A stretch of DNA of 64,000 nucleotides from Terriglobia bacterium (GTDB taxonomy: Bacteria; Acidobacteriota; Vicinamibacteria; Vicinamibacterales; CAVVIG01): positions 62,001 through 126,000 of the forward strand of contig JAIQFX010000001.1 in the NCBI GenBank assembly GCA_020073005.1. The letters run 5' to 3'. Each line of letters starts with the position of its first letter. The first letter of the stretch is position 1. Positions 30,042-30,596 of the stretch are shown one piece after another. Both the position numbers and the translations under genes were made by a program. The notes beneath the pieces were generated by a model that saw nothing but the letters and a program-made list of their open reading frames with translations, made no database searches and was not told where the DNA came from.

Positions 30042-30596
30042 TCAGCTTGTGAGTGCGGTCAGCCGCGCGACCATGTCGCCGCCGTGGGATCCGGCGCTGA
30101 CCGACTTGTCAATGTCCAGGATGCGGCCGTCCGCACCGATATAGAACGTCCACCGCGATGCATACCCGCTCGGCGCGAGGACGCCGTACGCCCGCGCCAC
30201 ATCCTTCGTCGAATCGCTCAGAATCGGATAGTCGATCCCGAGCGAGGCCGCGAACTTCGTGTTCGTCTCGACCGTGTCCACGCTCGCCGCGAAAAACTTC
30301 ACGCCGAGTTTCCGTAACGCTTCGCCGCTCGACCCGAGCGACCGGCACTCCGCCGTTCAGCCACCGGTGAACGCTTTCGGGAACCACGCAATCGCCACGA
30401 CGTGACCGGCGAGATCGCGGAGCCGATACGTCCGGCCGTCCGACGCCGGCAGCGAGAAATCCGGCGCCGCCTCGCCCGCCTTCAGCTCGATCGCTGATTC
30501 GCCGCGCCGCGTGGCCACGTTGATGATTCCTACCGCCGTCGCCGCGATTGTCGTCGCGATTGTCCGCAGCCGGTCGATCATTCCCGGCACGCTCAT
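30042..30596 (-). CDS. Peroxiredoxin (PrxQ/BCP-like) with in-frame UGA at the catalytic cysteine, candidate selenoprotein
   Basis: The 184-residue product is read through a TGA at 30357-30359. Upstream sequence gives KAGEAAPDFSLPASDGRTYR and VVAIAWFPKAFTGG. After the TGA, in the same frame, come TAECRSLGSSGEALRKLGV, FFAASVDTVETNTKFAASLG, DYPILSDSTKDVARAYGV and SRWTFYIGADGRI. The TGA is codon 80 and falls on the last position of P-x(3)-T-x(2)-C (PKAFTGG followed by U), the peroxidatic cysteine. Cys84 could be the resolving residue, and the conserved Arg is in SRWTF. It probably reduces peroxides. I chose the ATG at 30596 (weak GGTGGGGG site). A nonsense mutation is the alternative, but the position and intact frame favour selenocysteine. 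Confidence 0.8.
30324..30346 (-). promoter_or_regulatory. Candidate bacterial SECIS hairpin after the peroxiredoxin UGA
   Basis: Read on the minus strand, GCCG pairs with CGGC (outer four pairs). The bases GUCG bulge out on the 5' side, and CUCG pairs with CGAG (inner four pairs) around a GGU loop. The GGU loop begins about 23 bases after the UGA. An apical GGU and a bulged U on the 5' side are features of the E. coli formate dehydrogenase SECIS recognised by SelB. The stem is drawn by eye; an alternative seven-pair fold shares the same apex. Confidence 0.5.

Follow-up and report, generated by a model that had tools for sequence, protein, structure and literature searches.

Bacterial SECIS elements differ so much from one another that they are difficult to recognise. 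Those of the Escherichia coli type carry a bulged U in the stem, a feature that lies outside the consensus model of the bacterial element (bSECIS). This consensus describes an apical loop of 3-9 nt on an upper stem of 4-16 bp, a G in the first two loop positions that is mostly followed by G or U, a distance of 16-37 nt from the UGA to the loop, and a minimum free energy (MFE) of -7.5 kcal/mol or lower (PMC13188914). Peroxiredoxins with a PxxxTxxU motif are presented as a selenoprotein family in the passages of PMC13188914 cited here, and 43 genes for selenocysteine (Sec)-containing peroxiredoxins are given for the Sargasso Sea set in those of PMC1088965. For the Acidobacteria, the corresponding passages report four selenoproteins in a count of 2006 (PMC1794560) and three in the one Acidobacteriota genome tested (PMC12013277). 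Sec use in Planctomycetes is described in PMC4807772, and PMC5029168 covers 91 peroxiredoxins in a main text that, in the sections cited, makes no mention of Acidobacteria, Planctomycetes or Verrucomicrobia.

Results

The window, a 64,000-nucleotide stretch of DNA from an uncultured Terriglobia bacterium (Acidobacteriota), contains on its minus strand a peroxiredoxin gene of the AhpC-TSA family (30042-30608), delimited by translation with TGA read as Sec (U), by Pfam and by homologues from the same class. It starts with GTG at 30608 or ATG at 30596 and stops with TGA at 30044-30042. The product matched the Pfam models AhpC-TSA (102.8 bits) and Redoxin (79.8 bits), both over the cut-off, and the PxxxTxxU motif that marks Sec-peroxiredoxins was present within this domain as PKAFTGGU. 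The in-frame UGA (30357-30359, minus strand), read as Sec at residue 84 (U84) of PKAFTGG-U-TAEC, occupies the peroxidatic Cys position in the alignment to Cys homologues. Family and motif are thus shared with the Sec-containing peroxiredoxins of the cited parts of PMC13188914 and PMC1088965; unlike those, the product has a second Cys at U+4 (U-T-A-E-C) and scores below the PrxU cut-off (NF040737, 48 vs 270 bits curated), and no NCBIfam model reached its cut-off on it. On the opposite strand, a weak fluoride-riboswitch match (30454-30539, plus strand; 13.3 bits, cut-off 34) lies antisense to the gene and is probably due to chance. Further along the window, AT-rich repeats at 31440-31530, which by eye resemble gtgaaaactgaaaag on one side and its complement-like form ttttcagttttcagtt on the other, directly precede a 725-aa ORF at 31545.

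In a protein search of the 193 class genomes, 191 had a homologue, most best matches having one internal TGA, and the closest named relatives were Acidobacteria metagenome-assembled genomes (MAGs), part of them labelled gp6. For the comparison, 110 class loci, taken almost entirely from the head of the list of matches, were combined with 80 of 142 named relatives. Identical stretches were counted once (L137 was dropped as a copy of L001, and 12 of the 80 named loci as copies of class loci), and matches lacking the active-site motif were left out (two class and five named loci). The remaining genes, from Acidobacteria, Planctomycetes, Verrucomicrobia and others, comprised 123 with TGA and 55 with a Cys codon (TGC/TGT) at the aligned position, a ratio in which UGA forms are over-represented because loci were selected for their similarity to the UGA gene of the window. 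The UGA fell exactly on the Cys of PxxxTxxC. That the gene is broken, its UGA being a genuine stop or an artefact of assembly, would fit the fragmented assembly (179 contigs) and evidence that consists of sequence only; against this, 123 homologues drawn from several phyla share the UGA, invariably in place of the Cys and in a frame open on both sides, and the explanation is therefore exceedingly improbable.

The genome of the window encodes the complete Sec machinery: SelA (contig C169, 541 bits), SelB (contig C41, 347.6 bits), SelD (contig C133, 349.4 bits), which has an in-frame UGA of its own, and tRNA-Sec (SelC; contig C107, 60.4 bits, anticodon UCA). The SelD UGA (L121, G000:C133) corresponds to residue 11 within the matched region and is followed by G-loop hairpins, one of them with GGU ~33 nt downstream; it was seen by direct reading of the frame, and a motif scan for SelD gave nothing useful. 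Among the 106 listed class genomes with a UGA peroxiredoxin, SelB exceeded the cut-off in 93. All of the other 13 had SelA (11 over the cut-off, two partial), so the apparent lack of SelB most likely reflects the search, which scored at most six candidates per genome. About 52-53 class genomes had no SelB over the cut-off. SelB was found in 11 of the 23 listed genomes that had Cys forms only, and 11 of the 12 without it lacked SelA as well. In two genomes (G067 and G068), selA, selB, selD and the UGA peroxiredoxin follow each other in that order on one strand. No evidence favoured decoding of the UGA as Trp or Cys, whether through an altered genetic code or through near-cognate suppression: the homologues have Cys at this position and not Trp, the Sec machinery is present, and the gene itself terminates at TGA, which leaves this reading a negligible probability.

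Downstream of the UGA, the initial annotation had proposed a SECIS hairpin, and its sequence, in-frame UGA, coordinates and GGU loop were confirmed. The hairpin (GUCGCUCG-GGU-CGAGCGGC; RNA GUCGCUCGGGUCGAGCGGC) occupies 30324-30342 on the minus strand, begins 14 nt past the UGA and comprises 19 nt with 8 bp, seven of which are conserved. Its apical loop GGU (30332-30334, minus strand) is closed by a G-C pair. All four published bSECIS constraints, those of the bSECISearch model, accommodate it, with a 3-nt loop on an 8-bp stem, the GGU, a UGA-to-loop spacing of 22 nt and -11.3 kcal/mol for the isolated hairpin. It was present in the minimum-energy folds of both the 60- and the 51-nt stretch, with an inner pair probability of 0.98 in the latter.

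Folding thus bore out the hairpin and its GGU loop, the best stem being the eight continuous pairs of GUCGCUCG/CGAGCGGC and not the bulged stem of the annotation. The lower stem GCCG/CGGC with a GUCG bulge is in the wrong register: it is 4.4 kcal/mol weaker (-8.5 vs -12.9 kcal/mol) and is not conserved. Across 67 distinct homologue sequences, two of the four lower pairs of the bulged structure (GCCG/CGGC plus CUCG/CGAG) form in 10 each, and its loop-closing pair forms in seven. An E. coli-type bulged U, which the annotation had also assumed, is not supported because the corresponding U (30341) sits in a conserved U.G wobble with the G at 30325 (both minus strand), the pair being UG in 64 and UA in three of the 67 distinct rows. 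The element resembles the SECIS of E. coli fdhF in being a stem-loop directly after the UGA with GGU in the loop, at a spacing of 22 nt as compared with 18 nt in fdhF. Unlike the folded fdhF element, which has an unpaired U three pairs below its loop GGUC, it carries the U.G wobble five pairs (six in the window) below the loop.

Might the hairpin be a by-product of a conserved coding sequence in GC-rich DNA, with Sec insertion directed by another structure? The GC content is 68%, and looser hairpins (at least 7 bp, any 3-9 nt loop with an early G) follow 174 of the 1620 TGA trinucleotides of the window; moreover, the 60-nt stretch folds with an energy typical of this DNA (z -0.50), and KSLRESG is a conserved stretch of the protein. 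A contiguous stem of at least 8 bp with a G[G/U]N triloop 16-37 nt past the TGA occurs at one of the 1620, namely this hairpin. A search of Rfam with 29900-30800 returned no SECIS family and just two sub-threshold matches. Since looser hairpins are common and the energy is unexceptional, the case for a SECIS element rests on comparison and not on energy.

The comparison was made on seven conserved pairs (alignment columns 18-24 with 30-36), scored as the best of two registers. A UGA without a conserved hairpin was rare: 117 of the 123 UGA homologues keep all seven pairs, four keep six and two keep five, whereas in either register seven pairs were found in only 4 of the 55 Cys homologues and six pairs in 12. 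The counts thus show a hairpin kept alongside the UGA and mostly lost from Cys homologues; the protein tree by itself gives p = 0.125, with four independent UGA/Cys contrasts on supported branches and the hairpin changing in the same direction in 3.7 of them on average, and is too weak a test of this association. The full stem takes one register with a 5-nt loop, CGUGA in most homologues, in 102 of the 117 genes. In the remaining 15 (L079, L085, L089 and 12 others), the 3' arm lies exactly one codon further on, giving a stem CGCUG/CAGCG and an 8-nt loop; in the CGUGA loop and in this variant the family differs from the consensus, which the window itself fits. The two weakest sequences (L040 and L136) also form a hairpin with a CGUGA loop, but a bulged one. 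Each of the eleven loop types seen in the first register (register A) carries G as the second of its five nucleotides. The isolated hairpin reached -7.5 kcal/mol or lower in 98 of the 123 UGA homologues (25 being weaker) and in 7 of the 55 Cys forms, and the inner pair probability in 51-nt context was at most 0.5 in 14 of 74 sequences. One Verrucomicrobiales MAG (L150), with SelB in its genome, has a peroxiredoxin with a Cys codon and yet the full 7-bp hairpin with the CGUGA loop, which probably represents a recent Sec-to-Cys change.

Covariation was assessed on 75 of the 91 class UGA sequences (67 distinct; alignment A1). Among the distinct sequences, 99.1% of cells were paired, as compared with 31-73% in slid controls, a percentage that follows from the choice of rows because 14 register-variant sequences, L040 and L136 are excluded from A1, while the 123-gene counts include all. 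Both sides of a pair had changed in 24 cells vs 2.8 ± 1.4 in shuffles (0 of 500); two other measures were not clearly above the shuffles, namely the number of pairs with a double change (28 of 500) and that of additional pair types (485 of 500). Pair 18-36, at third codon positions, was GC in 50, AU in 10 and CG in six sequences, and changes on both sides were also seen at 21-33 (GC 64, AU 3) and 22-32 (CG 61, UA 5) and, once the named loci were added, at 24-30 (CG 103, GC 4, UA 1), so that four of the seven pairs show compensatory changes. A tree test of the 18-36 coupling was too weak, with just two supported pairs. Codon choice followed the same pattern. The loop Arg codon was CGT in 76 of 84 genes vs 9% elsewhere in the same genes, and CGC in none of the 84 vs 37%. 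When the genes were recoded at random with synonymous codons, the pairing seen in the real sequences was attained in a mean of 9% of trials for UGA genes and 49% for Cys genes; for the window's gene the figure was 6.9%. The coding sequence here, described in the annotation as seemingly unconstrained otherwise, is under strong constraint from the hairpin. Compensatory changes at third codon positions, the CGT bias, the loss of the hairpin in most Cys homologues despite a similar protein context, and the register shift in 15 sequences all speak against a mere by-product of the coding sequence, which we regard as very unlikely. A separate, unexplained codon bias lies directly 3' of the UGA and outside the hairpin (30351-30356 and homologues): the Thr codon is ACG in 83 of 90 UGA genes vs 46% elsewhere, and the Ala codon is GCC in 64 of 75 vs 41% and GCG in just four of 75 vs 46%. 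The window's own Ala codon is GCG.

The stem also coincides with a link between two amino acids. In the 108 UGA forms of register A, residues U+7 and U+10 were Leu-Ser (88), Phe-Asn (19) or Leu-Gly (1), and never Phe-Ser or Leu-Asn. The link was absent from the 55 Cys homologues, in which Asn accompanied Phe in 4 of 15 cases. Pair 22-32, either C-G or U-A, is the likely cause. Similarly, a flip of pair 24-30 from C-G to G-C accompanies Asp at U+9 in four sequences. On the tree, Leu/Phe and Ser/Asn change six times each, a number of coupled switches that is not firm because just two contrasts fall on supported branches.

Discussion

The hairpin at 30324-30342 is almost certainly the SECIS element of a peroxiredoxin with Sec as its peroxidatic residue. 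The proposal of the initial annotation is borne out in this respect, as the hairpin tracks the UGA, shows compensatory changes, lies within the bSECIS constraints and occurs in a genome with the full Sec machinery, and our analysis indicates that it very probably signals Sec insertion at the UGA. SelB binding, Sec insertion and peroxidase activity are what we infer from these observations. By analogy with fdhF, SelB with GTP and Sec-tRNA(UCA) would bind the hairpin through its apical loop, which contains a G, while the ribosome approaches the UGA, and would deliver Sec in place of termination; the hairpin would then melt and be translated as RSLGSSG.

A literature search by title and abstract, with supplements and subscription papers outside its scope, found none on an acidobacterial peroxiredoxin of this kind or its SECIS. 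Given that the consensus constraints apply and the peroxiredoxin family is known, the element therefore represents a new case of a known mechanism. With this family, a SECIS strongly supported by covariation becomes available from phyla that are scarcely treated in the cited portions of the selenoprotein papers, along with Cys homologues as natural controls, a variant in a second register and a Cys form in which the hairpin is kept. We lean, with some reservation, towards the view that the SECIS RNA shapes the peroxiredoxin protein through pair 22-32, and that SelB of these phyla reads a family-wide U.G-wobble stem with no bulged U and in two registers. An RNA pair that seems to dictate coupled residue replacements would be a clear natural example of its kind and could mislead protein coevolution methods. 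The family is also material for SECIS models and for how SelB outside the Proteobacteria reads its hairpin.
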